DNA from: Thermoplasmatales archaeon
GTDB lineage: Archaea > Thermoplasmatota > E2 > DHVEG-1
Assembly: GCA_030672305.1 (NCBI GenBank)
Contig: DAOVGR010000081.1
Location: forward strand, 1 to 34,672
Direction of reading: 5' to 3'
DNA length: 34,672 nt
The notes below the pieces were generated by a model. The model worked only from the letters and a program-made list of their open reading frames with translations. It was not told the origin of the DNA and did not search any database. Numbering within the stretch: the first letter of the stretch is position 1; each line of letters begins with the position of its first letter. Shown here piece after piece: positions 2,895 through 21,164 of the stretch. The translations under genes were made by a program, and so were the position numbers.

Positions 2895-5042
2895 ATGAAA
2901 AAATACATACATTTGGGAATTTTAGCTATTTTAATAATATCAACATTTTCCGCTTCTTCTATTAATACAAATACCAATCCATATACATACGTAGAAAAAA
3001 ATGGTATTGAATCTAAGTATCATGATGCTTTTAAAACATTTTTAATTGAAGGTTTAGAAGAACTAGTAGAATATAATGAAACTGGCGTTATAAAAGATAC
3101 ATACATGGTTACAATGCGTGATGGTATTAATCTAGCAACTGATGTTTATTTACCATTATTTTTTAAAAAACCATATGGCGCAATTTTTCTTAGAACACCA
3201 TATGACAAGGATGATTTACATGACCTTGGAATTCTTTTAGCTCTTGTTGGTTGGCCCACAGTTATACAGGATATCCGTGGAACTCATGCATCAGAAGGGA
3301 TTTATTCTGGTTTTAGAAAATGCCAGACTGATGGACCAGATGCCCTAGCATGGATTGGTTCTCAAGATTGGTCAAATGGCAAAGTTGCTACTGTTGGACC
3401 TTCAGCATTTGGTATTACACAGTATTTAACAGCTGGTGCAAATCCACCTGAACTTGCTTGTCAAGGAGTAATGGTTGCTTCTACCAATCTACATAAACAT
3501 GCAGTTTATCAAGGGGGAGAATTTAGAAAACAACTTGTTGAAGAATGGTTAGAAGGTGTAGATGCAACATATCTTTTAGAAGAGATATTTCTTCAGGAGA
3601 ACTATACTTTAGATTTCTGGACAAATGTATCACTTGACGATAACTGGGATAATATCAATGTTCCAGCTATTCATATGGGTGGATGGTATGATATTTTCCT
3701 CCAAGGAATAACTGATGGATTTTATGGGTATCAGCATCTTGCTGGAGCAGGCGCTAAAGGAAAATCCAAGCTTGTTATTGGCCCATGGACACATGAAGGT
3801 TATATTACATATGAACAAGGAGAATTAACATATCCTGAGAATTCAAGAAGAGTTGTTGAATTTGTTCTTATGTTTTTAGAGATGGTTAAAAAATATACAA
3901 TGGATGAAGACAATAATTTTGAGGATAGACCCGCTGTTTGGTATTATGTCATGGGAGATATAGATGTTATTGATGCACCTGGTAATGAATGGCGTTTTGC
4001 AGATGATTGGCCGATTCAAGCAGATTATGTTTCATGGTATTTTCATGAAAATGAATTTTTAAGTAAAAGCAATCCTAGCAATTATAATCCTTTATCCTAT
4101 ATTTATGATCCCACAAATCCTGTTCCAACTCTTGGCGGGCAGAATCTTGAAATGCCTCCAGGACCTTATGATCAAAGACCTATCGAGAGTAGAAGCGATG
4201 TTTTGGTATTTACAAGCGATATACTTACAGAGCCTTACGAGGCCACTGGTCCAATAAATGCAAGACTTTTTGTTTCATCTGATTGCCCAGATACTGATTT
4301 CACAGTAAAAATATCAGATGTTTATCCTGATGGAAGATCAATGCTTATTACGGATGGTATACTTCGTATGAGAAACCGTAATGGCGTTGACCATTGGGAG
4401 TTTATGCAACCCGGTGAGATTTACGAAATAGAAGTTGATATTTGGAGCACATCTTATATCTGGAATACAGGACATAGGATTCGGATAACAATTTCTTCTT
4501 CTAATTATCCAAGATTTTTAGCTAATCCAAATACTAAAGACCCAATTAATGATAATTCAACATATAATATTGCAAATAACACTCTTTATATTGGTAATGA
4601 TTATCCTTCATGTATAGTTCTTCCTGAAATTGAACAAGGACTATCAAACACTCAACCATCTAAACCAAAAAAACCTTCGGGTTTAAGACGAATAAAAGTC
4701 GATAAATACTACAAATATTCTACTACTACAACTGACCCTGACAATGATCAGATATACATACTTTTTGATTGGGATGATGGTACATCTAGTGGTTGGTTAG
4801 GACCATACGAATCAGGAAGAAAGGTAAAAGCATACCACAAATGGATAGAAAATGGAACTTATTTGATAAGAGTTAAAGCAAAAGACATAAATGGTACTAA
4901 TAGTGAATGGTCAGATCCTGTTAAGATAAATGTACCTAGAAATAGAAATGTAATAAATACACTAAATTTGAGGATTTTTCAGATATTTCCTTTTATATTT
5001 AATTTATTAAAAAATGCTAAATTTCTGGGAAAACTTTTTTAA
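2895..5042 (+). CDS. secreted S15/CocE-type serine hydrolase with PKD-like module and tail
   Basis: 715 residues with an N-terminal signal peptide (1-21). Residues 75-400 are an alpha/beta-hydrolase of the X-Pro dipeptidyl-peptidase / cocaine esterase type. The likely nucleophile is Ser170 in GPSAFG, with Asp266 in GGWYD and His300 in GPWTH, all in family order. Residues 420-575 are the beta-rich C-terminal X-Pro peptidase domain (TSDILTEPYEATGPI and onward). Residues 590-680 are a PKD-like module (TTDPDNDQIYILFDWDDG, then GPYESG and RVKAKDING). Residues 681-715 are the PRNRN-type hydrophobic tail. It probably acts outside the cell on peptides or esters; the exact substrate cannot be read. 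The nucleophile elbow lacks the common Tyr after Ser (Ala here). Two purine-rich stretches, AAGGAG and GAGGGAG, precede the start. Confidence 0.85.
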   Translation: MKKYIHLGILAILIISTFSASSINTNTNPYTYVEKNGIESKYHDAFKTFLIEGLEELVEYNETGVIKDTYMVTMRDGINLATDVYLPLFFKKPYGAIFLRTPYDKDDLHDLGILLALVGWPTVIQDIRGTHASEGIYSGFRKCQTDGPDALAWIGSQDWSNGKVATVGPSAFGITQYLTAGANPPELACQGVMVASTNLHKHAVYQGGEFRKQLVEEWLEGVDATYLLEEIFLQENYTLDFWTNVSLDDNWDNINVPAIHMGGWYDIFLQGITDGFYGYQHLAGAGAKGKSKLVIGPWTHEGYITYEQGELTYPENSRRVVEFVLMFLEMVKKYTMDEDNNFEDRPAVWYYVMGDIDVIDAPGNEWRFADDWPIQADYVSWYFHENEFLSKSNPSNYNPLSYIYDPTNPVPTLGGQNLEMPPGPYDQRPIESRSDVLVFTSDILTEPYEATGPINARLFVSSDCPDTDFTVKISDVYPDGRSMLITDGILRMRNRNGVDHWEFMQPGEIYEIEVDIWSTSYIWNTGHRIRITISSSNYPRFLANPNTKDPINDNSTYNIANNTLYIGNDYPSCIVLPEIEQGLSNTQPSKPKKPSGLRRIKVDKYYKYSTTTTDPDNDQIYILFDWDDGTSSGWLGPYESGRKVKAYHKWIENGTYLIRVKAKDINGTNSEWSDPVKINVPRNRNVINTLNLRIFQIFPFIFNLLKNAKFLGKLF

Positions 5043-5070
5043 ATAATACAACATATTAACACACGTTAAT
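5034..5070 (+). promoter_or_regulatory. TATA box plus TTAACACACGTTAA palindrome
   Basis: TTTTTAAATAAT (about 5034-5046) overlaps the end of the preceding gene and can serve as a TATA box. The arms TTAAC and GTTAA lie at 5056-5069 and extend to ATTAAC/GTTAAT. The next gene starts at 5085. Despite the short gap, the downstream gene thus seems to have its own promoter and operator. Confidence 0.5.
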
Positions 5071-5084
5071 TTGGGTTGAGTGAT

Positions 5085-6731
5085 ATGAATAAAAAAATCA
5101 TAACAATCTTTATAGTTTTATGTATAGGACTAATTAATGGAACAATTGCTTCCGGTAATTTTAAGATTAATAATGAAATAATAAATCAAGATATTGTTTT
5201 TAGTGAAGATTATGGAATTCAATGGGAAATGAACTTTGACTCAGATAGACGCTATGGTGCCAGATATGAAGGCCCTCAGCCCATAGGTGATTGCGATAAC
5301 GATGGTTTAAATGAAATGATTGTAGGAGGAAGAGATAATAAGCTCAGAATATTTGAATGGAATAAAGATAAGCAAACATACTTGGAAATGCATACCTTGT
5401 TTCCACCATTTTATCCTCTTCAAGACTCTGATGCTGGTGGATTTGCTATTGGTGATCTAACAAAGGACGGAAAAAATGAGATTGCTGCGACCTGGGGCGT
5501 ATCTATTCATAAATGGCTTCTTGGAAAATATAGGATTATCGGTTATAATTCTTGGATTTTCAACAACGGTGGTGGTAGCGGAGATTGTTATATTGGAGAC
5601 TATGACGATGATGGTGAAAATGAGTTAATTGTAAGTGGTGGACCAATGGATGATTGGAGTGATTGTCCTGAAATTACAATATTTCGTTGGAATGGAATAA
5701 GTCTTGTAAAAGAAGCAGAATGGAATAATCCGGATCATGGTTACACACATATCTATATGCCAGGTCTAGCAGACATAGATGATGACGGAAAAAATGAGAT
5801 TGTTTGTGGTTCTGGCTTTAAAATCTTTGTACTTGACTGGGACGCAGAAAATAAAATATTTGAAGAAACAATTATTAAAGAAACAGGAGAAGATTATTAT
5901 CCTTTTGCTTGTGTTTTAAAGGATAGTGACATGGATGGAAAAAATGAGATTCATGTTGGTTATTGGTCTCCAATGATTTCTATTTTTGAGTGGAATGGAA
6001 CTGGTTATGAGATTAAATATGAAAAAGAGTGGCCGGGTGAAGGCACATTAATTGAAGGACTTGACGTTGGTGATGTTGACAATGATTCTTTTAATGAGGT
6101 TTGTGCTGGTACAAATCTTATTCACATCCTTCAATGGAATGGAGATACCTATATTGAAGAAGCGGTTCTTCCAACATTTGGTCATCTCGCTGTTGTCATA
6201 GTTGGTGATTGTGATAATGATGGGTTGAATGAGATTCATGCTGGTTCAGTTATGATTGATGAGGGTGAAGAATTTATGTCATGGGTCTTCAAATATGGCC
6301 TTGAAACTCGTGATTATAAACAAACAGATTCAGGATATGGCAGATTAACAGTAGACACTACGCAAGCGAAACTTGGAACACTATTAAAAAATGCTTCAGT
6401 TGCTGCCTGGAATTTAGAAACTGGGACATGGTATGATATTAGACCTAAAAACACAGAATTTAGCACTTATACACGTTATGATCTACCTGAAGGAGACTAT
6501 CTTATAAGAGCTCATATGGAGGGATATCAGCCACAAGAAGTAAATATTAATATTTATACAGGAGAAGAGACCACTCATACATTTACAATGAAACAAACAT
6601 TTACTCGTGATAATTCAGAAAATAAATCCCCTGTTTATTGGTTATTTAAGTACTTAGAACGGTTTATTTTAATTCATCCAATTTTTGGGAGATTATTACA
6701 ATTAAATTTATTTAAAAATATAATTTCTTAA
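5085..6731 (+). CDS. secreted FG-GAP/VCBS beta-propeller protein with regulatory-like domain and tail
   Basis: 548 residues from ATG 5085; a TTG nine bases upstream is possible but puts residues before the signal peptide. Residues 1-25 are a signal peptide. Seven blades of an FG-GAP/VCBS type propeller can be followed through calcium-loop motifs of the form DxDxDGxNE at about residues 69, 124, 172, 229, 281, 330 and 375 (for example DCDNDGLNE and DYDDDGENE). Seven repeats would close a complete propeller. Residues 420-500 form a carboxypeptidase-regulatory-like sandwich (ASVAAWNLETGTWYD, YLIRAHMEGYQ). The last 35 residues, with LERF...HPIFGRLL, are the shared hydrophobic tail. No catalytic motif is seen; binding or adhesion is the likely role. 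Confidence 0.8.
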   Translation: MNKKIITIFIVLCIGLINGTIASGNFKINNEIINQDIVFSEDYGIQWEMNFDSDRRYGARYEGPQPIGDCDNDGLNEMIVGGRDNKLRIFEWNKDKQTYLEMHTLFPPFYPLQDSDAGGFAIGDLTKDGKNEIAATWGVSIHKWLLGKYRIIGYNSWIFNNGGGSGDCYIGDYDDDGENELIVSGGPMDDWSDCPEITIFRWNGISLVKEAEWNNPDHGYTHIYMPGLADIDDDGKNEIVCGSGFKIFVLDWDAENKIFEETIIKETGEDYYPFACVLKDSDMDGKNEIHVGYWSPMISIFEWNGTGYEIKYEKEWPGEGTLIEGLDVGDVDNDSFNEVCAGTNLIHILQWNGDTYIEEAVLPTFGHLAVVIVGDCDNDGLNEIHAGSVMIDEGEEFMSWVFKYGLETRDYKQTDSGYGRLTVDTTQAKLGTLLKNASVAAWNLETGTWYDIRPKNTEFSTYTRYDLPEGDYLIRAHMEGYQPQEVNINIYTGEETTHTFTMKQTFTRDNSENKSPVYWLFKYLERFILIHPIFGRLLQLNLFKNIIS

Positions 6732-6768
6732 TAGCCATTATAAAAATAAAAAAAAAAGAGGAACTCAA

Positions 6769-7284
6769 ATGAATAGAAAAATATTGGGTGCCATAATTGT
6801 TTTAGTACTGATAATTGGTGCATTACCATCATCAAATTCTGAAAAGAACAATCAAGGATTTTCAAAAGAAAATCTTGAAGATAATGAAAATGTTATAAAT
6901 TATCAAATAAAAGGAAGCTATTATTTTCAAGATTATCCTGTAATGGAGGATCCTATATCTTATCCAGATATTGAAGGAGTTCCCTATCCAATTCTAGATG
7001 ATTTACCTGATGAATTTAGTTGGAGGAATTACAACGGGAAAGACTGGACAACACCTGCAAAAAACCAGGGTTCTTGTGGAAGTTGTTGGGCATTTGCAGC
7101 CTTAGGTGTACTTGAATCAATGGTTAAAATAAGAGAAGGTAATGCAGATATAAATCCAGATTTTTCAGAACAATATGTGCTTTCATGTTTACCAGAAGCA
7201 GGTAGTTGTCGTGGTGGTAGAGCATGGGTTGCACTTGAGCTTTTACAAGATGATACTCCAAGAAGAAATAATGAGAATTGTTAA
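6769..7284 (+). pseudogene. truncated papain-like (C1A) cysteine peptidase
   Basis: The first 171 residues of a secreted C1A peptidase. A signal peptide covers residues 1-24. A propeptide-like segment is followed by the mature start FSWRNYNGKDWTTPAKNQG. The active-site Cys106 sits in QGSCGSCWAF with oxyanion Gln100, and the following LSCLPEAGSCRGGRAW is also typical. The frame then ends in DDTPRRNNENC. The catalytic His and Asn, which normally lie 120-180 residues further on, are absent and are not found in another frame nearby. It cannot be an active peptidase. A tail-like fragment at 7813-7869, beyond two unrelated small genes, may be the far end of the same gene, which would make 7270-7810 replaced or inserted DNA. 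Confidence 0.75.
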
Positions 7285-7322
7285 ATAACAAGATATTTAT
7301 TCTGTATAAGGAGGAAAAAATT

Positions 7323-7508
7323 ATGGTATTTACGCATGAAGGTTGGACGTTATATTGTAAAGATGTAAAGCTTAAAGGCGGAAAAATCCAGACTATCTAC
7401 TATTTCAGCAAGAGGACACCGAAGAGTGGTAAACCCTGTGACAAGCCTGATAACATGGTAGTTGGTGTTAATAAGAGAACTGGTCTTCCATATTTGAAAA
7501 AGAAGTAA
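7323..7508 (+). CDS. small basic conserved-looking protein (61 aa)
   Basis: 61 residues from ATG 7323, preceded by an excellent ribosome binding site AAGGAGG at 7308-7314. An earlier in-frame opening near 7278 would run through that site and is unlikely. The protein is basic and strand-rich: VFTHEGWTLYCKDVKLKGG, then IYYFSKRTPKSGKPCD and a C-terminal NKRTGLPYLKKK. Two Cys residues are far apart. I recall similar short proteins in archaeal genomes but cannot name a function. A T-rich hairpin terminator follows directly. Its location inside the remains of a broken peptidase gene suggests that it arrived by insertion or rearrangement. Confidence 0.7.
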   Translation: MVFTHEGWTLYCKDVKLKGGKIQTIYYFSKRTPKSGKPCDKPDNMVVGVNKRTGLPYLKKK

Positions 7509-7537
7509 GAAGAGCATAAATCTCTTCTCCTTTTTTT
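7507..7537 (+). terminator. hairpin plus T-run terminator
   Basis: AGAAGAG (7508-7514) and CTCTTCT (7522-7528) form a perfect 7-bp stem with a 7-base loop, followed by CC and seven T (7531-7537). A second T-run follows. It begins at the stop codon of the 7323-7508 gene, so it is a good candidate for its transcription terminator. Confidence 0.6.
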
Positions 7538-7612
7538 CTATCTTTTTTGTTGAAAATTTAAATCAGAAAAGTTAAGGGAGATTTTGACTCGTATTTATTA
7601 GTAATTTTTATA

Positions 7613-7756
7613 CTATCTTTTATACTCCTTTGGATGCTCTACTTGGTATTTAAAAAAACATTCTCTAGAACAAAAATGATGCTTTGCGGTCTCATACATG
7701 CTCGGTGATTTGTAGATTACTTTGCCACAGGTCTCACATATAGTTTTTATAGGCAT
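7613..7756 (-). CDS. tiny zinc-finger protein (47 aa)
   Basis: A 47-codon frame starts at ATG 7754-7756 on the minus strand, with an in-frame stop just upstream and a GGGG-type ribosome binding site (AAGGGGAT). The protein carries two Cys pairs, CETC at residues 7-10 and HHFCSREC with Cys29 and Cys33, a pattern that fits a treble-clef or zinc-ribbon of the FYVE/YHS kind. The rest is basic and aromatic (FFKYQVEHPKEYKR). Such mini zinc fingers bind nucleic acid or protein, but no specific role can be assigned. The codon structure, Cys spacing and start signal together make it convincing despite its size. It converges with the 7323-7508 gene. Confidence 0.65.
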   Translation of the reverse strand: MPIKTICETCGKVIYKSPSMYETAKHHFCSRECFFKYQVEHPKEYKR

Positions 7757-8000
7757 CTACATCTTATCCCCTTACAATTTAATAAACTTCTCTTTCTTTA
7801 AAAAACCAACCATTATTTGAAAAATCGAAACTGCTGGAAAAACTGCTGGGATTAATCAGAGTATTATAGATTTTTAGCACTAAAAAGATGTAAACAATTA
7901 ATAAGGATCCATTTATATAACAAATTATTATTTACACAGCTAAAAGAATTATTGAGTCTAAAACGACCAATCACCACCTCTATCTTTTTTAAATCATAAT
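7757..8000. other. intergenic stretch with one tail fragment
   Basis: This gap holds the C-terminal-tail fragment described separately at 7813-7869 and otherwise A/T-rich DNA. No further coding frame, RNA gene or strong inverted repeat was found before the promoter of the 8062 gene. Confidence 0.6.
7813..7869 (+). pseudogene. orphan C-terminal tail fragment 1
   Basis: In one frame this reads LFEKSKLLEKLLGLIRVL then TAG. The LLEKLLGLIR part matches the FPMLEKLLNLIR and FPILERLLTLIK fragments elsewhere and the tails of encoded secreted proteins. It has no start codon and is bounded upstream by a stop at 7783-7785. It is most simply the surviving 3' end of the papain-like gene truncated at 7284, which lies upstream on the same strand. 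Confidence 0.5.
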
Positions 8001-8028: not shown

Positions 8029-8061
8029 GTATATTTATATATGAAATGGGGGTAAAAAAGA

Positions 8062-10452
8062 ATGAAACATATTTTTTATAGAAAAGGTTTGGTTTTAGGA
8101 ATAATAATTCTACTTTCTATAGCCGCCTTTGGAGCTAGCAATGTACCTGGTACTATTGAAAAGACAGAAAAAGAACGATCTCAAGAAATGATTAACTCTC
8201 AGAAGGCTATTCTGTTTGATGCAACAGAATTTCCAAATGAGGAGCACTCACAGATTCAGATTAGTGGTACTAGTGCCCAAGTGAGTGCATACACGCGTGA
8301 AGGACGAATTAAACGTCTCTATGGTGAGGCCTTTTCTTATGGTGACAGCCCTAAAATGAGTGCTGATACCTTTCTTCAGGCCAATGCCCACCTGTTTGGC
8401 GTGGATGCAGCTGATCTGAACTTTCAAAATCTCCAACCTATTATGTACATCCGCGATACAGATGCATACAAATTTACTAGTGTCAACTACTTCCAGTACA
8501 AAGATGGTATCCCTGTATTCCAATCACGACTTATATTGTTAGTGAAAAACGAGGAGAATTATCCACTTGTTCATGCCTCTGTTGATCTACGTAACCTCGA
8601 TGGGTTTATTCCGGATGTCAATCAAGATAACCTAAACCCTGAAGAGGGAATTAATAATGCTTTAACAATGAAACCGAGTTTGGTTTACTTTACACAACCA
8701 GAATTGGTAATCTGGGCGGGCATAGATGACATGTTTGTTCAACCGAAGTTGGCATACAGCCTCATTGGCGATAATGGGTATCAAAATGGTGATAGCTCTC
8801 CTGAGAAATACTTATTTGTCACTGATGCAGAAACCGGTGATATCTTATATGTTGAGAGTCTCATCATTTTTGTGGATGTGACTGGGAATGTACAAGGTAA
8901 AGCAACGCAAGATAAAGGTGCAGATATCTGCGAGGATGAATTAGCGGAGAATTTGATATGGGCTCGTGTAAACATTGGCAGCAATATTGCATATACTGAT
9001 GAGAACGGGGATTTCACAATTCCTAATGAAGGTTCATCCCCAGTGACTGTTGAATCACGGCTTTGGGGTAAATGGTTCCGGGTTTTTAATCAGGCTGGAT
9101 CAGACACAGTTCTAAGCAAGATAGTAACACCACCTGGACCCGCTGATTTTATGCATAATAATTTGAATAATAACGAGTACTTACGAGCTGAGGTCAATGG
9201 CTATCTCCAGGCCAATATCGTACGCGATTTCACACTCACTTATAATCCAGATTATCCAGGTTTAGACGAAACTGAATTTCCAGTTAACGTTAATATCAAT
9301 GACAATTGTAATGCTTTTTATGATTATCAATCGATAAACTTTTATAGAGCAGGAGGTGAATGTCCTAACACCGCTTTTTCAACTATTATTCATCACGAAT
9401 ATGGTCACCATCTGGTGTCGATGGCGGGCAGCGGACAGGGTCAATATGGTGAAGGAATGGGTGATGTGATGGGTGTTTTGATCCATGATGATCCAGGACT
9501 TGCTTATGGTTTCTTTAGCGACTGTGATACACCACTTAGAAATGCAGATAATGATATACAGTATCCATGTGGTGGCGCAATTCATTATTGTGGACAGTTG
9601 CTCTCTGGTTGCGTATGGGATACAAGAAACGAATTGTATATTACAGATCCTACAAATTACAGTGACATAATTAGCAACCTTGCCATTAACGCTATGCTTT
9701 TACACACAGGTACTGAGATTGATCCAAGTATCACTATAGATTACTTGGTACTTGACGATGACAATGGCGATATCTACGATGGGACACCACATTACTGCGA
9801 AATCGCGGCTGGCTTTGGTGCTCACAGCATGGATGCACCTCCTGGACCTCCACGTATCCCAGATAAACCTGATGGACCAGATGATGGAATAATGAATATA
9901 GAATATACGTTCAATGCGACCACTATCGATTGTGAGGGAGATCAAATATATTATATGTTTGACTGGGGCGATGGAAAAGATAGTGGTTGGATAGGACCAT
10001 ACAACTCTGGTGATACAGGAAGTGCTTCATACATATGGAAAAAAGCAGGAACCTTTGAAGTAAGGGCAACAGCCAAGGACGAATATGGCAGGGAGTGTGG
10101 CTGGTCAGATCCTTTAATAGTAAACATAATAGAATTAATTGATATCCAGTCTGTCAAGGGTGGATTTTTTAAAGTAAGTGCTGTAATCAAAAACAATGGT
10201 GACGAGGCGGTAACTGGTGTACAGTGGAGCATCACTCTTGAGGGTGGTGCATTTATTGGCAAAAATACCTCTGGGCAAGTGAATATCCCTATGGGTGGAG
10301 AAGCAACTATAGAATCAGGGTTAATATTTGGATTTGGAGCAACAAAGGTAACAGTTACAGCTGAGGTTGAGGTACCTGAATGCTCAGATACAACAGAGAG
10401 AGGTGGGTTTGTTCTCCTGTTTTATACACATGTAAACTTTGGAGGCGAGTGA
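8062..10452 (+). CDS. secreted FTP/fungalysin-like zinc metallopeptidase with PKD-like module
   Basis: 796 residues. Residues 1-28 are a signal peptide. Residues 75-210 form an FTP/PepSY-like propeptide (SADTFLQANAHLFGVD, then YFQYKDGIPVFQSRL). The zinc site is HEYGH at 445-449, with the likely third ligand Glu464 in GEGMGD. The region after it (IHYCGQLLSGCVWDTRNE) is rich in Cys and family-like. Residues 600-690 are the PKD-like module (YYMFDWGDGKDSGWIGPYNSG). About 95 C-terminal residues form another beta sandwich (FFKVSAVIKNNGDEAV) ending in GFVLLFYTHVNFGGE. It should degrade extracellular protein after self-removal of the propeptide. The first two thirds are visibly more GC-rich than neighbours, with codons such as CGC and GCC, suggesting transfer. 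It lacks the hydrophobic tail, but a tail fragment lies 90 bases downstream. Confidence 0.85.
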   Translation: MKHIFYRKGLVLGIIILLSIAAFGASNVPGTIEKTEKERSQEMINSQKAILFDATEFPNEEHSQIQISGTSAQVSAYTREGRIKRLYGEAFSYGDSPKMSADTFLQANAHLFGVDAADLNFQNLQPIMYIRDTDAYKFTSVNYFQYKDGIPVFQSRLILLVKNEENYPLVHASVDLRNLDGFIPDVNQDNLNPEEGINNALTMKPSLVYFTQPELVIWAGIDDMFVQPKLAYSLIGDNGYQNGDSSPEKYLFVTDAETGDILYVESLIIFVDVTGNVQGKATQDKGADICEDELAENLIWARVNIGSNIAYTDENGDFTIPNEGSSPVTVESRLWGKWFRVFNQAGSDTVLSKIVTPPGPADFMHNNLNNNEYLRAEVNGYLQANIVRDFTLTYNPDYPGLDETEFPVNVNINDNCNAFYDYQSINFYRAGGECPNTAFSTIIHHEYGHHLVSMAGSGQGQYGEGMGDVMGVLIHDDPGLAYGFFSDCDTPLRNADNDIQYPCGGAIHYCGQLLSGCVWDTRNELYITDPTNYSDIISNLAINAMLLHTGTEIDPSITIDYLVLDDDNGDIYDGTPHYCEIAAGFGAHSMDAPPGPPRIPDKPDGPDDGIMNIEYTFNATTIDCEGDQIYYMFDWGDGKDSGWIGPYNSGDTGSASYIWKKAGTFEVRATAKDEYGRECGWSDPLIVNIIELIDIQSVKGGFFKVSAVIKNNGDEAVTGVQWSITLEGGAFIGKNTSGQVNIPMGGEATIESGLIFGFGATKVTVTAEVEVPECSDTTERGGFVLLFYTHVNFGGE

Positions 10453-10541: not shown

Positions 10542-10595
10542 GTTTTAAGGGAGCGATTCCCAATGCTGGAAAAACTGCTGAACCTTATAAGATAA
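10542..10595 (+). pseudogene. orphan C-terminal tail fragment 2
   Basis: Reads VLRERFPMLEKLLNLIR then TAA, with a stop (TAG) immediately upstream and no start codon. The nucleotide stretch TTCCCAATGCTGGAAA is identical to the tail-coding DNA of the 10677-12323 gene. It is 90 bases past the stop of the metallopeptidase gene. It is either a decayed protein end or a dispersed repeat derived from one. Confidence 0.6.
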
Positions 10596-10625
10596 CAATT
10601 TTGTTCTTTATCTTTTGGTTATTGT

Positions 10626-10659
10626 AACATTTAAATATCCATAATAGGATGTAAATGTT
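10626..10659 (+). promoter_or_regulatory. inverted repeat around TATA region upstream of 10677 gene
   Basis: AACATTTA (10626-10633) and TAAATGTT (10652-10659) are perfect 8-bp arms, 18 bases apart. The left arm runs into the TATA-like ATTTAAATAT. The gene's AGGGAGG ribosome binding site follows at 10661-10667. The sequence is AT-rich, so chance pairing is possible. Confidence 0.35.
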
Positions 10660-10676
10660 GAGGGAGGTATTAAAGA

Positions 10677-12323
10677 ATGGTAAAACAGAGTAGCATAATA
10701 TGTAAATCTCTTGTAGTTGGAGTTATAGTTCTATTATTTGTAATGAGTTTTAATCCAATTATAAATGGAAATAAATGGATAAATAATTCGATTTCTCGAT
10801 ATGATACTATTGAAGAAAATAATATTTTAAATTCTCCACCCAGAGAGACATTTTGTGATACAATTAATAGATATCCTAAATTTGGTAGCTATCCTGAATA
10901 TTGTAATTATGTATATTTTTATCATCCACCAAGAGAACTTGAATGGGAATATAATAAAGAAAATTTTAATGGAACTATTAACCAGTTCAGACTTCTTGCA
11001 TCAGACAATACTAACCATACATGGAATTTAAATAATTTTGAATTACATATAAACGGAGTAAATTGCAGTAATCCTGATACTCAATCTTTCTATAGAAGAC
11101 ATCTGCAATGTTATGAATGGGAAATAATTTGGAATAATCTCAGCCAATACTGTACAGGAGTTATTTTATTTGAAATATTATATTTAGATTGTGTTTGGAT
11201 TGAATACCAAGGAGACTATGATGATGATGGAGATGAAACATTTCATTACTCATATTATAATCCCCGCAGTTACATAGATGGAACACTTAATGGTGATTAT
11301 CTTTTTGATAGTGATAAAGCATACATTTGTTGGTACATACCCACAGATTATAATCCACCAGATACACCCACTAAACCATCTGGCAATACCTCTGGATATA
11401 TTTGTATTGACCATAATTACTCAACATCAACAACTGATCCATATGGACTGAATGTATCCTATGGTTGGGATTGGGATGGTGATTTGGTTGTTGATGAATG
11501 GACTGACTGGTACGAATCTAATGAGACCTGTACAATAGCTCATAATTGGAGCAATCCTGGTGATTATTGTATTAGTGTAAAGGCAAAGAATACATTAGAA
11601 GAGGATGGTAATTGGTCTCCTAAATTGAACGTTACGATGTTAAACCATCCACCATATTCTCCTAGTAATCCTATTCCTCTAGATGGGGATCGAAATGTAC
11701 CTATTAATGAGATACTATGTTGGACTGGTGGTGATCCTGATATTTGCGATACTGTTGTCTATGATGTATATTTTGGAATGGATTGTCCTCCTCCACTTGT
11801 TTCTTATCATCAGACTTACACATGTTATGATCCAGGTACTCTACCACTATTTGAAGATTTTTGTTGGATGGTTGTTGCTTGGGATAATCATGGTGCGTCA
11901 AATTCCAGCCCCATGTGGACATTTTCAACTGGTGTAAATCTACCACCATCTGATCCTGAAATAAAAGGCCCTTCAAATGGAAATCCGGGAAAAGATTACA
12001 AATTTACCATCGTTTCGATCGATCCAGATGATCACAATATCAAGTATTATGTAGATTGGGGTGATGGAAATAATATTGAAACTAAATATTATTTGTCTGG
12101 TAATGTAGTAACGTTGAATCATACATGGAATAAAAATGGAACTTATTTGATTAAAGGGAAAGCAATAGATCAATATGGTGCTGAAAGCAATTGGAGTGAA
12201 TATGAAGTTATAATTCCAAGAACCAGAGCAACCTTTTATTTCTTGATTCATTGGTTGTTGGAACGTTTCCCAATGCTGGAAAGACTGCTATCATTGGGTT
12301 ATTTTTATACACGACTTATTTAA
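10677..12323 (+). CDS. secreted multi-domain PKD/Ig-like protein with ERFPMLERLL tail
   Basis: 548 residues. Residues 1-33 are a signal peptide. Residues 40-215 form an N-terminal domain I do not recognise, aromatic and Cys-containing (NHTWNLNNFELHINGVNC; a DYDDDGDETFHYSYYN acidic loop that may bind calcium). Residues 220-318 form a PKD-like module whose core is WDWDGDLVVDEWTDW. Residues 320-420 form a fibronectin/Ig-like unit (CWTGGDPDICDTVVYDVYFG) of the kind often used for surface display. Residues 425-513 form a second PKD-like module (YYVDWGDGNN). Residues 514-548 are the best example of the shared tail (PRTRA...LLERFPMLERLL). It has at least ten Cys residues, suggesting extracellular disulfides. 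No catalytic motif is seen. Probably a surface-binding protein; the N-terminal domain may hold the function. Confidence 0.75.
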   Translation: MVKQSSIICKSLVVGVIVLLFVMSFNPIINGNKWINNSISRYDTIEENNILNSPPRETFCDTINRYPKFGSYPEYCNYVYFYHPPRELEWEYNKENFNGTINQFRLLASDNTNHTWNLNNFELHINGVNCSNPDTQSFYRRHLQCYEWEIIWNNLSQYCTGVILFEILYLDCVWIEYQGDYDDDGDETFHYSYYNPRSYIDGTLNGDYLFDSDKAYICWYIPTDYNPPDTPTKPSGNTSGYICIDHNYSTSTTDPYGLNVSYGWDWDGDLVVDEWTDWYESNETCTIAHNWSNPGDYCISVKAKNTLEEDGNWSPKLNVTMLNHPPYSPSNPIPLDGDRNVPINEILCWTGGDPDICDTVVYDVYFGMDCPPPLVSYHQTYTCYDPGTLPLFEDFCWMVVAWDNHGASNSSPMWTFSTGVNLPPSDPEIKGPSNGNPGKDYKFTIVSIDPDDHNIKYYVDWGDGNNIETKYYLSGNVVTLNHTWNKNGTYLIKGKAIDQYGAESNWSEYEVIIPRTRATFYFLIHWLLERFPMLERLLSLGYFYTRLI

Positions 12324-12426: not shown

Positions 12427-12900
12427 ATGAACAAGAAATTAGTTGGAATAATTATCGGAATGCTAATACTTACAACTATTGCCCCTATTGCAGTATCAGC
12501 ACTAAAAATAGATAGAATAAGGGACAATTCCCCACCCGATGCACCAGATATAACCTTACCAGAAAAGGTAAGAAGAGGTAGACTATTTAATGTGACAGTT
12601 GTCACAACAGATCCAGATGGTGATGATGTATATTATAGACACAAGTCTAACAGTTGTACTAGCTCTTGGTTTGGACCATTTCCTTCAGGTGCGAATTATA
12701 CTTTTAAATTAAGTATAATAGGCGTTCCAGGAATATATCCCATAGGTGTTCAAGCAAAAGACATTAATGAAGCAGAAAGCGAATGGGCATATGCCGACAT
12801 TAATTTGCCAAGAAACAGAGCAATTACATCGCCATTCTTGAGCTTTCTACAAAATAATTTTTATTTTTTATATTTATTATGGAACCTAATAGGGATATAA
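12427..12900 (+). CDS. small secreted single PKD-like protein with tail
   Basis: 157 residues behind an AAGGAGGA ribosome binding site. Residues 1-26 form a signal peptide ending near VSA. Residues 35-127 are one PKD-like module: NSPPDAPDI, then TTDPDGDDVYYRH, WFGPFPSG and VQAKDINEAESEWAYADI. The central 'FDWGDG' of related modules is replaced by YYRHKSNSCTSS, so the calcium-type turn is lost. Residues 128-157 are the PRNRAI tail with a variant FYFLYLLWNL core. The protein is essentially one module plus tail, so it is the minimal example of the architecture and useful for testing what the tail does. Its catalytic role, if any, is unknown. Confidence 0.75.
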   Translation: MNKKLVGIIIGMLILTTIAPIAVSALKIDRIRDNSPPDAPDITLPEKVRRGRLFNVTVVTTDPDGDDVYYRHKSNSCTSSWFGPFPSGANYTFKLSIIGVPGIYPIGVQAKDINEAESEWAYADINLPRNRAITSPFLSFLQNNFYFLYLLWNLIGI

Positions 12901-13665: not shown

Positions 13666-13716
13666 GAGCGTTTCCCAATACTGGAAAGACTGCTGACATT
13701 GATCAAATCTGTTTGA
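13666..13716 (+). pseudogene. orphan C-terminal tail fragment 3
   Basis: Reads ERFPILERLLTLIKSV then TGA, preceded directly by an in-frame TAA. Its DNA closely matches fragment 2 over about 45 bases, including GGTTTTAAG just before the coding-like part. Upstream flanks of the two are also similar (a T-rich run, then AGAATCA). It is not translatable as it stands. Confidence 0.6.
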
Positions 13717-15241: not shown

Positions 15242-15258
15242 TTTGGGAGGAAAATTTT

Positions 15259-15455: not shown

Positions 15456-16283
15456 TTGAGTATCGAAGAAATTATCGACTTCTTAGAAATAGAAATACCC
15501 TTTTCAAATATAACCATTTTTAACTTAATTTCAGCAATTGTTGTTATTGTTATTGGCTACCTTATAGCAGTTTTAGTTAGTCGTTATATAAAGAAAGCTA
15601 TGTTAAAGGCAAAAATGGCAAAAATTTTAGCGATTTTTACAAGTCGAGTTGTTAAAATTTTACTAATAATTTTCGTCATAGCAATTGGGATTGGATTTTT
15701 AGGAATAGATGTTGGAGCAGCATTGATAAGTATATCTGTTGTTTCTGGATTTGTACTAGGCTTTGCATTCCAGGAAACGTTAGGAAATTTAGCTGCGGGA
15801 TTTATGATTGCTATTACCAAACCATTTAGAGTTGGAGACTATGTTGATATTGCAGGTCAATCAGGCTCTATTAATGATGTTGGTGCAAGTATAACAACTA
15901 TGACAACTGTAGATAACAAGAGAGTCATTATACCAAATTCAAAGATTTGGGGTGAACCAATTGTAAATTATACTGCTCTGAATAAAAGAATGATTGATAT
16001 GAGAGTAGGTATCGGTTATAGTGACAATATGGGAAAAGCAATCCAAATTACAATGAAGGTACTAAAAGCAAATAAAAAAGTATTAGATGACCCGGCTCCT
16101 ACTGTAGCAGTTGCCAATTTGGGAGATTCAAGTGTTGACTTACTAGTTCGCCCATGGGTAGATACTAGTGATTATTGGACTTCTAAATGGGAGATTACTC
16201 AACAAATTAAAGAAGCTTTTGATAAAGAAAAAATAAGTATCCCGTTTCCACAAAGAGATGTTCATATATTTGAACAAAAATAG
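15456..16283 (+). CDS. small-conductance mechanosensitive channel (MscS family)
   Basis: 275 residues from TTG 15456, supported by GGAGGA six bases upstream. Three membrane segments are visible, at about residues 18-43, 60-82 and 88-113. The third carries the pore-lining Gly/Ala-rich pattern ending in GFAFQETLGNLAAGFMIAITKPF, the most conserved part of MscS. The beta domain follows (VGDYVDIAGQSGSINDVGASITTMTTVDNKRVIIPNSK), then the alpha/beta C-terminal domain (SSVDLLVRPWV). This is the usual size of the compact MscS type. The channel opens under membrane tension and releases solutes on hypo-osmotic shock. Confident at family level. Confidence 0.92.
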   Translation: MSIEEIIDFLEIEIPFSNITIFNLISAIVVIVIGYLIAVLVSRYIKKAMLKAKMAKILAIFTSRVVKILLIIFVIAIGIGFLGIDVGAALISISVVSGFVLGFAFQETLGNLAAGFMIAITKPFRVGDYVDIAGQSGSINDVGASITTMTTVDNKRVIIPNSKIWGEPIVNYTALNKRMIDMRVGIGYSDNMGKAIQITMKVLKANKKVLDDPAPTVAVANLGDSSVDLLVRPWVDTSDYWTSKWEITQQIKEAFDKEKISIPFPQRDVHIFEQK

Positions 16284-16313
16284 AAAATATATTCTTTAAG
16301 AGGTGAACTAATA

Positions 16314-16433
16314 ATGAAATGTGATCTTTGCGGTGCAGATGTTCCTGATGAGAAGATAAAACATATTCATATTAAAGGAAATGCAAAGAACATCTGTGAA
16401 GGTTGTGTAACCTCTGTAAAAGGTTTAATTTAA
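16314..16433 (+). CDS. tiny zinc-binding protein (39 aa)
   Basis: 39 codons from ATG 16314, 30 bases after the channel gene, with an AGAGGTG ribosome binding site. It has two Cys pairs: CDLC at residues 3-6 and CEGC at residues 28-31, plus two His between them. This spacing fits a zinc ribbon. The linker is DVPDEKIKHIHIKGNAKNI. Similar mini-proteins resemble the zinc finger of Trm112- or TFIIB-like factors, but no function can be given. Likely co-transcribed with the channel gene. Confidence 0.6.
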   Translation: MKCDLCGADVPDEKIKHIHIKGNAKNICEGCVTSVKGLI

Positions 16434-16529
16434 ATTAAAAAATAATACATTCAAATTGATTTTCAGTTTATAGCTAGAGGATTTATTAATTAGTAAAATA
16501 TCCAAATTTTAAAAAAGTGTGATGCGTAT

Positions 16530-17906
16530 ATGAAAAAATTTGATGTTATTGTTATTGGAAGTGGTTCCGGTGGAGAGATTGTTGAAGCAGCTTTATCACA
16601 TAATTTTTCTGTTGCATGGGTTGATAAAGGACCTTTAGGTGGAACATGTCTTAATGTTGGTTGTATACCTTCAAAAATGCTGATTTATCCAGCTGATAGA
16701 ATTGTTGAAATTCAAGAAGCAGAGAAACTTGGAATAAAAGCAGAGATTAAAGGTGTTAACTTTGGTACAATTATGAAACATATGCGGGAGCCTATTCGCG
16801 AGAGTCATGAACATATGGAACAGGGATTACAGAACATAGAAGAATTTTCTTTTTATAAAGGATTAGGGCATTTTATTTCAGACTATACTCTTAAGATAAA
16901 TGATGAACAAATTCAAGGTGATAAAATATTTATTGGTTCTGGTGCACGACCATTAATTCCCCCAATTAAAGGTGTTGAGACCGTTGATTATCTTACAAAT
17001 GAAACAGTATTTAATCTTACTAAAAAACCAGATAGTATAGCAATTATTGGTGGTGGTTATATTGCTGTTGAATTTGCACATTTTTTTGCGGCTATGGGGA
17101 CAAAAGTAACTGTATTTCAAAGAAGTGATAGATTGATTAATAGTTCAGAACCAGAAATCTCTAATCTTTTACTAAGGCAAATGGAGAAACGCATGAATGT
17201 TCAAACAAATGTTGAAGTTTTTGAATTTAAAAAAGAAGGAAAAGGTTACACAGTTTTTGGTAGAAATAACAGTACTGGTAAGGAAACAAAGGTTAACTCA
17301 GAAAAAATCTTGATAGCAACTGGTAGAAAATCTAATGCTGATTTATTAAAGGTTGAAAACACTGGAGTGAAAACAGATAAACGCGGTTACATTATAGTAA
17401 ATGAGTTTTTAGAAACCAGTAAGAAGAATATATGGGCCTTTGGTGATGCCATTGGTAAATACATGTTTAAGCATGTAGCAAATGAAGAAGCACTTATTGC
17501 ATGGCAAAATGCTGTACATGATCATAATAAAACTCCAATGGATTATTCAGCAGTTCCCTATGCAGTCTTTACTTACCCGCAGATAGCTACAGTTGGTCTA
17601 ACTGAAGAAGAGTCAAAGAAAAATCATCAAATTTTAGTAGGAAAAGCAATGTATAGTGATGTAGCCAAAGGCGAGGCTATGATGGAATTAGAAGGATTTT
17701 CAAAAGCAATAGTTGATAAAAAAAGTGGAAAAATTCTAGGATTTCATATTATAGGACCTTATTCTCCTATATTAATTCAAGAAGTAGTAAATGCAATGGC
17801 TTTAGGTGGACAAATTGGTTATATAGGTCAGGGTATGCATATTCATCCAGCTTTATCTGAACTAATCCTCAGAACTTTAGGAAAACTTAAAGAGCCGAAA
17901 TCCTAG
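16530..17906 (+). CDS. dihydrolipoamide dehydrogenase-like flavoprotein disulfide reductase
   Basis: 458 residues. FAD-binding GSGSGG is at residues 10-15. The redox-active disulfide is Cys40/Cys45 in GGTCLNVGC. NAD-binding GGGYIAVE is near residue 174, and the second FAD motif ending in FGDA is near 308. The dimer-interface His-Glu pair lies in HPALSE (His439, Glu444). Everything needed for a class I pyridine nucleotide-disulfide oxidoreductase is present. No 2-oxoacid dehydrogenase or lipoyl protein genes are nearby, so the partner is unclear. It could serve a distant complex, or act as a mercuric-reductase-like or other thiol reductase, but it lacks the extra metal-binding Cys pair at the C terminus. 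Cytoplasmic. Confidence 0.88.
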   Translation: MKKFDVIVIGSGSGGEIVEAALSHNFSVAWVDKGPLGGTCLNVGCIPSKMLIYPADRIVEIQEAEKLGIKAEIKGVNFGTIMKHMREPIRESHEHMEQGLQNIEEFSFYKGLGHFISDYTLKINDEQIQGDKIFIGSGARPLIPPIKGVETVDYLTNETVFNLTKKPDSIAIIGGGYIAVEFAHFFAAMGTKVTVFQRSDRLINSSEPEISNLLLRQMEKRMNVQTNVEVFEFKKEGKGYTVFGRNNSTGKETKVNSEKILIATGRKSNADLLKVENTGVKTDKRGYIIVNEFLETSKKNIWAFGDAIGKYMFKHVANEEALIAWQNAVHDHNKTPMDYSAVPYAVFTYPQIATVGLTEEESKKNHQILVGKAMYSDVAKGEAMMELEGFSKAIVDKKSGKILGFHIIGPYSPILIQEVVNAMALGGQIGYIGQGMHIHPALSELILRTLGKLKEPKS

Positions 17907-17968
17907 GTCAATATTCACAATATTATTTATATTAGATGCCGATTGATAGCTTAGAGGGCGGAGGTAAC

Positions 17969-18226
17969 ATGAAAAAGAGATATATGGTTTGGTGGCATAG
18001 TTATGTGGATGATATCCATATTGAGGATGTCACCCTAAAAGATATTTATAAATGTGTCTCAAGTGCCCTTGAAGATTTAAACAAGCTAATATCAGTAGAA
18101 GATCAAGGTAAGATAAAAGTTAGAAATATAGAGTCATTAAATCCAATTTTTATTGAAATATTAGATAAATCAATTGAATCACAAGTAACAAATAACCCTA
18201 TTGTTGACGTAGATGAAATTGAATAA
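17969..18226 (+). CDS. hypothetical protein (85 aa), translationally linked to FAD oxidoreductase
   Basis: 85 residues from ATG 17969, chosen because GGAGGT lies five bases upstream; an ATG at 17936 would run through that site. The protein starts MKKRYMVWWHSYVDDIHIED and then forms two likely helices (LKDIYKCVSSALEDLNKLI). It ends acidic (VDVDEIE). No Cys pair, membrane segment or known motif is present. Its last 14 bases overlap the next gene, so the two are almost certainly expressed together and the protein may assist the flavoenzyme. Confidence 0.65.
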   Translation: MKKRYMVWWHSYVDDIHIEDVTLKDIYKCVSSALEDLNKLISVEDQGKIKVRNIESLNPIFIEILDKSIESQVTNNPIVDVDEIE

Positions 18227-19349
18227 AACAATTATTGTTGGAGCAGGAATTTCTGGACTTGCATGCGCAAGAACCCTTAATGAAAATGGCGAAGATTTTA
18301 TTATTATTAGTGAAGATATTGGCGGACGTATTTTGACATCTTCTGATAGAAGTGTTAATTATGGAGCTTTTTTTGTTTGCTCAGATTATTATAATTTGTT
18401 AAAATATGTTAAATTGAAATCACAAATCAGATTACGTGATTTCTGTTTTCATGAAGATGATTATTCATTTATTTTTTTTGAGCCAAAATTACTAAAATAT
18501 TCCATTCAATTTCTTAAAGTTTTAAGAACATTGTATAAATTTAGAAAAAAATTTCGTAAACTCAGAGAGATTATTGTAGATATATCTCAAAAAAAAGCAA
18601 TTGAAAAAGATAATTTTTTGCATGATTTATATATGCAAAATGCAGTTGATTTTGTCAATGAAAGAAATATTGAAAGTGGAACAAAGACTTATCTTGCTAA
18701 GGCGTTATATTCCACAACATTTTCAACAATTAAAGAGATGAATGCATTTAGTTTTTTGCAATTCATCTTACCATTAATTACACCTATTTACAGATTTTCT
18801 TTTGAAAAAGAAAAGATGATTCAACCTTTCCATAAAAATATATTAACTGGTCATGTTGATGATATAAACTATAAAAACGAAAAATATAAAATTAAAGTGA
18901 ATGGAAAGGTCTTTCAATCAAAAAACATAGTTTTAGCAACACAAATTAACTGGTCAAAACAATTTGTAGGTATAGATAAAACAAATTTACCTGTGAGCAC
19001 AAACATGCTTCATATTAAAGGAAACCCTAAAAAAATAATCTCAAGAAAAAGTTTTCATTTATTTTCTCCATCTAACAGTTTACAAGCAATTGCAAATCTT
19101 AAAGATGGAACGTTTCTTTTCTATTATAAAGATAAACAACCCAACCTAAAGCATTTTTTTAATAATCCAAAGGTTTTAGCTTATCAATATTGGAATCCTG
19201 CTGGAACTATCAATGGTCATAATCTTATTGAGAGCAATAGGGGAAATAATATGTATTTAATTGGTGACTATAATATAGCAGGACTTGAGGAGTCATATAT
19301 TACTGGCATTTATGCCGCTAATCAGATAATTAACTCAAAACGATCATGA
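18213..19349 (+). CDS. FAD-dependent amine-oxidase/protoporphyrinogen-oxidase-like oxidoreductase
   Basis: 378 residues. The N terminus carries the dinucleotide-binding motif GAGISGLACARTL (residues 11-23) followed by an acidic strand end and GGRILT, the hallmark of the flavin amine-oxidase superfamily. The C terminus has NNMYLIGDYNIAGLEESYITG, the second FAD-contact motif (GD...E..SG in the family). The middle is basic and divergent. It is shorter than typical monoamine oxidases (about 450 residues), so the substrate domain is reduced. The substrate is unknown; family members desaturate carotenoids, oxidise amines or porphyrins. It overlaps the preceding small gene by 14 bases. Confidence 0.75.
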   Translation: MKLNKTIIVGAGISGLACARTLNENGEDFIIISEDIGGRILTSSDRSVNYGAFFVCSDYYNLLKYVKLKSQIRLRDFCFHEDDYSFIFFEPKLLKYSIQFLKVLRTLYKFRKKFRKLREIIVDISQKKAIEKDNFLHDLYMQNAVDFVNERNIESGTKTYLAKALYSTTFSTIKEMNAFSFLQFILPLITPIYRFSFEKEKMIQPFHKNILTGHVDDINYKNEKYKIKVNGKVFQSKNIVLATQINWSKQFVGIDKTNLPVSTNMLHIKGNPKKIISRKSFHLFSPSNSLQAIANLKDGTFLFYYKDKQPNLKHFFNNPKVLAYQYWNPAGTINGHNLIESNRGNNMYLIGDYNIAGLEESYITGIYAANQIINSKRS

Positions 19350-19361
19350 TTAAAACAAAGG

Positions 19362-19394
19362 TTTATTAATTATATAGTTATTAACAATTGTTAA
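19362..19394 (+). promoter_or_regulatory. TATA box plus perfect TTAACAATTGTTAA palindrome
   Basis: TTTATTAATTATATA (19362-19376) is TATA-like. The perfect 14-bp palindrome at 19381-19394 is identical to that at 1048-1061. The peptidase gene starts at 19410. Predicted transcription start coincides with the end of the palindrome. Confidence 0.6.
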
Positions 19395-19409
19395 GTATGG
19401 TGGCATATA

Positions 19410-21164
19410 ATGAAAAATAAAATTCCGATTTTAATTATTTGTATGTTGTTGATTGTTTATATTATACCTGCTTCAGGAATTGTTATAACAAATAATAAAA
19501 CCGTTTTGATTAAGGATCCTGAAATTTATCGCTTGGAAGTTAAAAATCTTGATGATGGCAGAGTTGCTCCTATTCCTGGTGACTTATCAGATGATTTTAT
19601 TTTTCAAGAAATTATTTATAATTCGTTTAAAAAATCAATACCATATGAAAGACCTTTAGGATTTAATGATGAAATCATTGTTGAAATTTTAAATCAAATT
19701 GACGAAACAATGATATTAGGTTACTTAGAAAATCTAACAGATTTTGGACCGCGAGTCACTGGAACTCCAGAATGTGCTGCAGCTGGAGATTATATTTATA
19801 ATGAATTTGAAAACATGGGTTTAGAACCAAGATATGATGCCTGGTCCTATGGTGGGTATTCTGATAGAAATATTGAGGGAACATGGAATGGTTTTAACGA
19901 GACAAGCGATGAAATATATATTATATGTGCACATTATGATAGTGTTCCTGGAAGTCCAGGTGCTGATGATGACGGCTCCGGAACTGTTGCAGTTCTTGCT
20001 GCTGCAAAACTTATGAGTCAATATCAATTTAATCATACAATCAGATTTGTAGCTTTTTCAGGGGAAGAACAAGGTCTTCTTGGAAGTCATGAGTATGTTG
20101 AAGAAGCTGTTGCAAACGGTGATAATATAATTGCAGCACTAAATGCAGATATGATTGGTTTCGCCATTACAGAAAATGATGGTGAAAATATAAAAATCTA
20201 TGAAAATGATGCTTCAGAATGGATTACAGATTTTTCCATTATTGTTAGCGAAGATTATTACAATTACATAGAACTTACACTTATTCCAAGTGGTTATTCA
20301 TCTGGAAGTGACCATCGAAGTTTCTGGGAGTTTGGTTATGATTCCATCTTTTATCATGAATACAATTTTAATGATTATTACCACTCACCACAAGATACAA
20401 TTGAAAATATGAATATTACTTATTCAACAAAGTCAACTAGATTAATTATCGCAACTTTAGGTGAACTTGCTCAAGCATACCTAATTGGTGATCCACCAGA
20501 AAATCCCAATTCTCCCGATGGTCCCACAGAAGGAACAGAAGGTGAAGAGCTTACATTTTCGACAAGTACAATAGACCCAGATGGAGATCAAATCTATTAC
20601 CAATTTGACTGGGGAGATGATAATTACAGTATATGGCTTGGACCATTTAACTCTGGTGAAACAGTTGAAGCTTCTAATATCTGGTATGAATTAGGAGTAT
20701 ACGAAGTTCGTGTAAAAGCAAAAGATATTAACAACAGAGTAAGTGATTGGTCAGAACCAATAGTAGTGACCATCAATCATAACCTACCACCAGATAGACC
20801 TACAATAAATGGACCTAAAGTTGGCAGAACTGGAAAATCTTTGACATTCTCATTTAGTGCTTCAGACCCTGACAACCATGATATATATTATTTTATAGTG
20901 TGGGGAGATGGAACTCAAAATGATTGGTATGGTCCATATAAATCAGGTGATGAAATATCTATTAATCATACGTTTACTAAGGGCGGGCGAATCTTTATGA
21001 ACGTTAAAGCAAAAGATTATTATGGCAAAGAAGGAGAGATTGAGAACTTCATATTATTCATAGTAAAAAATAGAGCAATATCAAATCCAGTATTTCTTAG
21101 ATCTATAGAACGTTTTATTGAACACTTCCCCAGATTAGAATTTTTAATAAACATGTATCTATAA
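19410..21164 (+). CDS. secreted M28 zinc aminopeptidase with two PKD-like modules and tail
   Basis: 584 residues with a signal peptide (1-23). Residues 110-350 are an M28 peptidase with all metal ligands in order: His175 (AHYDSVPG), bridging Asp187 (GADDDGSG), catalytic Glu219 and ligand Glu220 (SGEEQG), Asp247 (NADMIG) and His325 (YHSPQDT). It should release amino acids from peptides outside the cell using two zinc ions. Two PKD-like modules follow: about 365-460 (YYQFDWGDDNYSIWLGPFNSG) without a break, and 463-552 (YYFIVWGDGTQNDW). Residues 553-584 are the shared tail (KNRAIS...HFPRLEFL). The architecture resembles the S15 hydrolase at 2895, and both likely belong to the same export and attachment route. 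Confidence 0.9.
   Translation: MKNKIPILIICMLLIVYIIPASGIVITNNKTVLIKDPEIYRLEVKNLDDGRVAPIPGDLSDDFIFQEIIYNSFKKSIPYERPLGFNDEIIVEILNQIDETMILGYLENLTDFGPRVTGTPECAAAGDYIYNEFENMGLEPRYDAWSYGGYSDRNIEGTWNGFNETSDEIYIICAHYDSVPGSPGADDDGSGTVAVLAAAKLMSQYQFNHTIRFVAFSGEEQGLLGSHEYVEEAVANGDNIIAALNADMIGFAITENDGENIKIYENDASEWITDFSIIVSEDYYNYIELTLIPSGYSSGSDHRSFWEFGYDSIFYHEYNFNDYYHSPQDTIENMNITYSTKSTRLIIATLGELAQAYLIGDPPENPNSPDGPTEGTEGEELTFSTSTIDPDGDQIYYQFDWGDDNYSIWLGPFNSGETVEASNIWYELGVYEVRVKAKDINNRVSDWSEPIVVTINHNLPPDRPTINGPKVGRTGKSLTFSFSASDPDNHDIYYFIVWGDGTQNDWYGPYKSGDEISINHTFTKGGRIFMNVKAKDYYGKEGEIENFILFIVKNRAISNPVFLRSIERFIEHFPRLEFLINMYL

Follow-up and report, generated by a model that had tools for sequence, protein, structure and literature searches.

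Unrelated exported proteins of one lineage may share a paralogous C-terminus, as in the LPXTG/sortase, PEP-CTERM/exosortase, GlyGly-CTERM/rhombosortase and MYXO-CTERM/myxosortase systems. PGF-CTERM, which pairs with archaeosortase A, is an archaeal form of exosortase-type sorting and likewise a C-terminal homology region found on many signal-peptide (SP) proteins of a single lineage. The C-terminal domain (CTD) of the Por (type IX) system provides a C-terminal signal without a transmembrane (TM) helix. In E. coli PBP5, a C-terminal amphipathic helix tethers the protein to the outer face of the cytoplasmic membrane, and localization depends on the last 18 residues, whose removal abolishes it (PMC2909392). 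Here we describe a C-terminal tail, first noticed on contig DAOVGR010000081.1 (assembly GCA_030672305.1) of a Thermoplasmatales archaeon; the whole stretch of 34,672 nucleotides (nt) is referred to as the window. The tail occurs on more than 100 exported proteins of the window's genome, is unnamed and has no Pfam or NCBIfam model. We propose, with a probability of roughly one half, that it is a lineage-specific, non-TM C-terminal module for surface retention.

Archaea of the MBG-D group, or Thermoprofundales, are among the commonest in sediments and are thought to degrade external protein with secreted peptidases, and one of their C25 peptidases has been labelled as bearing a Por-type C-terminal signal (PMC6461988). 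How do uncultured, single-membrane cells keep their digestive enzymes from diffusing away? The tail may offer a testable answer: it predicts surface-bound proteins and gives a signature for metaproteomes. If a protein that reads the tail exists, the two would form a sorting system outside the scheme of motif, TM helix and basic cluster.

Results

A modular tail at the C-termini of exported proteins

The window is contig 41 of an 86-contig metagenome-assembled genome (MAG; 2.81 Mb, 88% complete); the genomes compared below are MAGs as well. An earlier note on the window had described loosely similar C-termini on five proteins (named by their start positions 2895, 5085, 10677, 12427 and 19410) and a shorter version on a sixth (1083). 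All six open reading frames (ORFs) and their C-termini are where that note placed them. A profile built from 11 tails, four from the window and seven from the ends of PKD proteins elsewhere in its genome, gave 145 matches at E<=10 in that genome; over 100 fall below 1e-3. ORFs were then called in 462 kb fetched around matches, yielding 410 proteins; this set is biased, its regions having been chosen for matches, which leaves the result on tail position unaffected. The tail ends 105 of the 410 proteins. At E below 0.5 all matches are C-terminal, as are 105 of 105 hits below E 0.6, and the profile search found no internal copy among the 410. A held-out profile was built without the window's tails (E-values set for 410 proteins). 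It accepts all five window proteins (Table 1), three of which (2895, 12427 and 5076/5085) are divergent and acceptable only in light of the family. The likeness of the five is not due to chance, because the same tail recurs so often in the 462 kb of the same genome. The 2895 tail scores E 1.3e-12 in the own-genome search, the model having included that tail. Protein 1083 does not match the held-out profile (E 71), and was rejected as a member of the family.

Are the carriers exported? By a hydrophobicity rule, an SP-like N-terminus is present in 92 of 100 complete tail ORFs. In six of the remaining eight an SP lies in frame a short way before the called start, and the other two are apparently truncated by frameshifts; with the upstream cases counted, SP carriers amount to ~98/100. 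In three loci (L064 521-2059, L067 1796-3358 and L069 3456-5573) such SPs lie in frame upstream of the first ATG, GTG or TTG with no canonical start before them, pointing to non-canonical starts or assembly errors. Internal TM segments are absent from 96/100 tail ORFs. The check proposed with the original observation, that matches should lie only at the C-termini of SP proteins and exceed chance expectation, thus came out in its favor in positions, SPs and numbers. An SP subtype paired with the tail was considered and rejected, the subtype being just as common without the tail (26/92 versus 19/76).

The carriers are otherwise unrelated. Pfam searches of 91 tail proteins found PKD domains (51/91), NosD/beta-helix, beta-propellers, C25, C10, S8 and M28 peptidases, arylsulfotransferase, LamG and FG-GAP. 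In the window, Pfam and NCBIfam name a CocE/NonD hydrolase, an FG-GAP protein, PKD proteins and an M28 peptidase. A PKD-like module had been claimed to precede the tail in four window proteins; Pfam confirms PKD in 2895, 10677 and 19410, and in 12427 the resemblance is visible by eye only. The tail is therefore independent of the domains upstream of it: modular, exported and C-terminal. Many carriers are predicted proteases, a class in which removable C-terminal segments are common. Might the tail be a C-terminal pro-segment, or an intramolecular chaperone or export aid, that is removed or idle after folding? The abundance of C25, C10, S8 and M28 peptidases speaks for this, but the same tail ends non-enzymes (beta-helix, propeller, LamG and FG-GAP proteins) and is no confident part of the preceding domain in structural models. 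We consider such a role very improbable.

Table 1. Tails, orphan tail elements and PKD domains in the window.
Feature	Sequence	Position	Strand	Remarks
C-terminal tail of CocE/NonD-type hydrolase 2895-5042	PRNRNVINTLNLRIFQIFPFIFNLLKNAKFLGKLF	4935..5039	+	divergent; held-out E 0.014
C-terminal tail of FG-GAP protein 5076/5085-6731	KSPVYWLFKYLERFILIHPIFGRLLQLNLFKNIIS	6624..6728	+	divergent, without PR.RA start; held-out E 0.08
C-terminal tail of PKD protein 10677-12323	PRTRATFYFLIHWLLERFPMLERLLSLGYFYTRLI	12216..12320	+	canonical short form; held-out E 4.5e-10
C-terminal tail of small PKD-like protein 12427-12900	PRNRAITSPFLSFLQNNFYFLYLLWNLIGI	12808..12897	+	divergent; held-out E 0.019
C-terminal tail of M28 peptidase 19410-21164	VKNRAISNPVFLRSIERFIEHFPRLEFLINMYL	21063..21161	+	long-type spacing; held-out E 1.5e-4
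Orphan tail element	ERFPMLEKLLNLIR*	10551..10595	+	98 nt after stop of gene 8062, unfused
Orphan tail element	ERFPILERLLTLIKSV	13666..13713	+	~90 nt after stop of gene 13012; stop codon replaces L before ERFP
Terminal PKD domain directly before 10677 tail		11979..12206	+	Pfam PF00801, E 1.1e-7
PKD domain of M28 peptidase, upstream of second PKD and tail		20520..20747	+	Pfam PKD_4, E 2.2e-9

Anatomy of the tail

The ancestral form reads L-[LF]-E-R-F-P-N-A-F-P-I-L-R-x-L-L-G-L-COOH. A long form, LLxWLFERFPNAFPILRxLLGL-COOH, occurs across genera. The short form, FLERFPMLERLLxLLR, has 4 residues fewer and is a local expansion: near-identical 29-nt copies number 43 in the window's genome, 3 and 6 in two congeners, and almost none are found elsewhere. 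The PRNRA/PRTRA start described initially is present, but it is not a family-wide feature. PR[NT]RA is a linker at the level of the genus, and other genera have PYEPP, PTSYEP or others in its place. Two reported absences were borne out. There is no long membrane helix: the maximum Kyte-Doolittle hydropathy over 19 residues has a mean of 0.81, and 0% of tails exceed 1.6. Nor is there a basic end, the commonest last residues being L, R, Q, I and F; the short form has at most one terminal R or K and the long form ends in LGL.

The maximum hydrophobic moment over 11 residues is 0.64, compared to 0.52 for shuffled tails, with an excess of periodicity at 80-120 degrees, and each half of the tail has a moment of 0.4-0.7. 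AlphaFold2 places a helix, a break at the Pro motif and a second helix outside the PKD fold, at low to middling confidence (predicted local distance difference test scores, pLDDT, of 63-83 for the tail). For the 10677 protein the pLDDT is ~97 in the PKD domain and 67-83 in the tail. These low-confidence models suggest a pair of short amphipathic helices that the Pro motif separates. One continuous amphipathic helix that keeps its phase across the 4-residue indel was rejected: as one straight helix, the halves are out of phase. No Pfam or NCBIfam match covers the tail in the window proteins. A tail family is likewise absent among the top 25 Pfam families listed for the 91 tail proteins, and among the NCBIfam families listed for 32 PKD-tail segments.

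Distribution and drift

Among 390 genomes of the phylum, the tail is found in 37 of 45 genomes of the window's family, versus two weak singletons among the ~345 others. In several of the remaining genomes, a second profile picks up tails that are weak or diverged. G014, G111, G138 and G243 are tail-poor. An exact DNA pattern of the long core was run against 84,980 species genomes and retrieved 78 stretches, 77 of them from Thermoplasmatota. The exception (L189; contig JAGLJD010000061.1, 4.5 kb) lies at a contig end in a bin assigned to Parcubacteria, and probably reflects misbinning. The DNA-pattern search gave no match in viral contigs, and presence there was rejected. All 80 core matches of the genome scan end no more than 3 residues from a stop codon, and in 67 of 79 parsed matches exactly one residue follows the core G. 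SG8-52-3 and SM1-50, both of them MBG-D/Thermoprofundales genomes (PMC6461988), are among those that match.

How well is the tail kept between orthologs? In the M28 ortholog of a congener (G193) the tail is ~48% identical, counted on an alignment by eye, and the M28 domain 79%; the tail therefore drifts faster than the enzyme. In more distant M28 orthologs, from other genera, the segment after the PKD domain is unlike ERFP yet amphipathic (for instance FERYPRIYDLILKIF and LLDLFQHTRFGDLLQRLLNTI), as would be expected if the signal were physical rather than strictly read as sequence. Other end modules replace the tail in some M28 orthologs.

Two other C-termini recur on secreted proteins. GFVLLF[FY]..(N/F)xGG ends the window protein 8062-10452, L089 5413-7785 and proteins at L155, L251 and L254, and is also found on some M28 orthologs where others bear the ERFP tail. 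[ND]W.PAKEPYDI is found at L074 5707-7209, L075 7121-8584, L078 539-1924, L098 3938-5269, L163 and L201.

No tested enzyme tracks the tail

The earlier note had read the tail as a distinct sorting or membrane-attachment signal that needs a dedicated processing factor encoded elsewhere. The first part stands insofar as the tail is lineage-specific, belongs to exported proteins and is unlike LPXTG, PGF-CTERM and the Por CTD. The second part received no support: no tested enzyme tracks the tail, and neither a cleavage site nor a partner gene was found. The search covered candidate families rather than whole proteomes. Sortase is absent from all 45 family genomes (0/45). Archaeosortase occurs in 19/45, and its distribution is dissociated from that of the tail both ways, three genomes (G108, G132 and G208) being rich in tails without archaeosortase and another (G091) having archaeosortase with almost no tail; it was rejected as the partner. 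CPBP (40/45) and rhomboid (39/45) proteases are present regardless of the tail, and being near-universal they are uninformative; like sortase, they were set aside. A partner encoded beside the tail genes was also rejected, as the recurrent neighbors are other secreted proteins and a multicopy family, SPLFxVRTxRA, with no enzyme among them. The members of this family are exported proteins of ~200 residues with the motif near the N-terminus and mostly C-terminal TM segments, and lie near tail genes in several genera (L118, L160, L163, L181, L183, L195 and L201).

Could the tail nevertheless be a true sorting signal, its ERFP core and C-terminal carboxylate bound by a family-specific membrane enzyme or receptor that cleaves, transfers or docks the protein? 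Its strict confinement to the C-termini of SP proteins, its many members per genome, its restriction to one family, the invariant E-R-F-P and the near-fixed distance to the stop would fit. These traits resemble the comparative-genomic marks that revealed earlier sorting signals (PMC3237569). Against such a signal stand the lack of a motif-TM-basic architecture, the enzyme distributions and neighborhoods just described, and the drift of orthologous tails far from the motif. We regard it as a real possibility, though not the one we favor. Since the tested enzymes do not pair with the tail, surface retention by the tail itself is to be preferred over cleavage by a dedicated enzyme.

Conservation at the DNA level

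Synonymous sites of the tail are conserved, with a Kullback-Leibler divergence of ~0.6-1.6 in most tail columns versus ~0.25 in PKD columns of the same genes. Ile is encoded by ATA in 25/25 cases and the first Arg by CGN in 28/30. The two Arg residues of the short form, although both are part of 'ER', are encoded differently, the first by CGN and the second by AGA. If U-rich codons are avoided close to a terminator, this could account for some of the conservation, but not for the split between Arg codons. In 78% of tails the stop is followed by a pyrimidine tract 10 nt or longer, and a hairpin spans the stop in 20/79. A conserved RNA structure in the core was sought and rejected (alifold 0, z +0.45). 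The pattern behind the 43 near-identical copies in the window's genome has no match when reversed (0).

Some elements are orphans, unfused to a gene (10 of 30 short elements examined in the window's genome). Two lie in the window (Table 1) and had been overlooked by the earlier note. Four others (C2:30930, C7:45401, C14:68 and C14:12170) begin 6-7 nt beyond the stop codon of a gene whose product ends in PAKEPYD[IL]. These six are intergenic and stand downstream of secreted-protein genes. Read-through or frameshifting at the stop, which would join such tails to the EPYDI genes, was rejected. The frame relation varies between cases, which makes programmed recoding unlikely, and read-through is unlikely because TAG serves as a normal stop codon in these genes (26/105 tail genes). 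Recombination that swaps gene bodies or ends and leaves tail DNA behind is the likeliest origin of the orphans.

These data raise the question of whether the element acts as DNA. Tail codons, stop and U-tract terminator might form a 3'-end cassette that is copied by recombination among secreted-protein genes, or kept for a role in RNA or DNA, the peptide doing little. The synonymous conservation, the different codons of the two short-form Arg residues, the near-identical copies, the orphans and the pyrimidine tracts would all be accommodated. In a six-frame census, however, 106 elements are in-frame extensions of secreted ORFs and clear orphans are far less numerous, whereas one in three would be in frame if the peptide were irrelevant. 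Moreover, the length difference between the short and the long form is a whole number of codons, substitutions preserve hydrophobicity and charge class, and third codon positions are more variable than the first two when genera are compared. The core lacks RNA structure, and the peptide stays amphipathic in diverged orthologs. In-frame fusion of nearly all elements, and changes that respect codons, speak against a pure nucleic-acid role, and we judge the reading as a whole, copied cassette included, improbable.

Two further observations concern the window itself. Gene 10677 is preceded by a promoter-like block (window positions 10616-10670), TTATTGTAACATTTAAATATCC...GAGGGAGG, which includes a TATA-like core of archaeal type as well as a Shine-Dalgarno sequence, and the same block stands before secreted-protein genes at ~20 other places in the genome, a possible regulon. 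The papain-family (C1) peptidase gene at 6769-7284 ends after ~80 of 220 profile positions and is truncated, a pseudogene or the product of an assembly frameshift.

Discussion

We favor surface retention, and infer that the membrane is the target. Proteins exported by Sec would keep the tail after secretion. A short linker, frequently basic (PR.RA in this genus), would lead into two short amphipathic helices on either side of ERF-P or ERF-PxxF-P, and these would lie in the outer leaflet of the membrane and so keep the protein on the cell. Help might come from a surface protein that recognizes the ERFP core, and neither cleavage nor covalent transfer would be needed. Membrane attachment would suit the amphipathic anatomy of the tail. 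Two points weigh against retention by the membrane. Whole-tail moments are only modestly above those of shuffles (mean z 0.77). Between genera the core ERFPxxFPILRxLLG is kept more strictly than binding to lipid alone would demand; together with the near-fixed distance to the C-terminus, this strictness points to recognition by a partner.

A more elaborate and more doubtful proposal would unite several of these observations in a non-tripartite sorting system of MBG-D. A dedicated surface receptor or enzyme would read the ERFPxxFPILRxLLGL C-terminus of ~100 exported proteins, and the tail would move between genes as a 3'-end DNA cassette that ends at or near the terminator and is swapped against modules such as DWHPAKEPYDI.

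How does the tail compare with described systems? In LPXTG, PEP-CTERM, GlyGly-CTERM and MYXO-CTERM a motif is joined to a TM helix and a basic cluster, and a membrane enzyme matches each signal. SP proteins with the tail do end in a signature motif, ERFP...LLGL, which is the tail's own, but TM helix and basic cluster are both lacking, and none of the candidate enzymes tested is co-distributed with the tail. The tail differs from PGF-CTERM in lacking the PGF motif, the TM helix and the basic end, and in its dissociation from archaeosortase across the family; the window's genome also has PGF-like tails, on other PKD proteins. The Por CTD is a folded beta-sandwich, whereas the tail has ~30 residues and is predicted to be helical; moreover, the former is a domain of a bacterial outer-membrane system and the host of the latter a single-membrane archaeon. 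Pfam scans of the window and of the tail proteins list no match to a Por CTD, Por machinery lying outside this search. With PBP5 the tail would share the essentials, an exported protein with a short, here predicted, C-terminal amphipathic helix and no TM span. The PBP5 anchor belongs to a few paralogous bacterial enzymes, whereas the tail is a motif common to more than 100 unrelated archaeal proteins, with two putative helices and a conserved Pro core.

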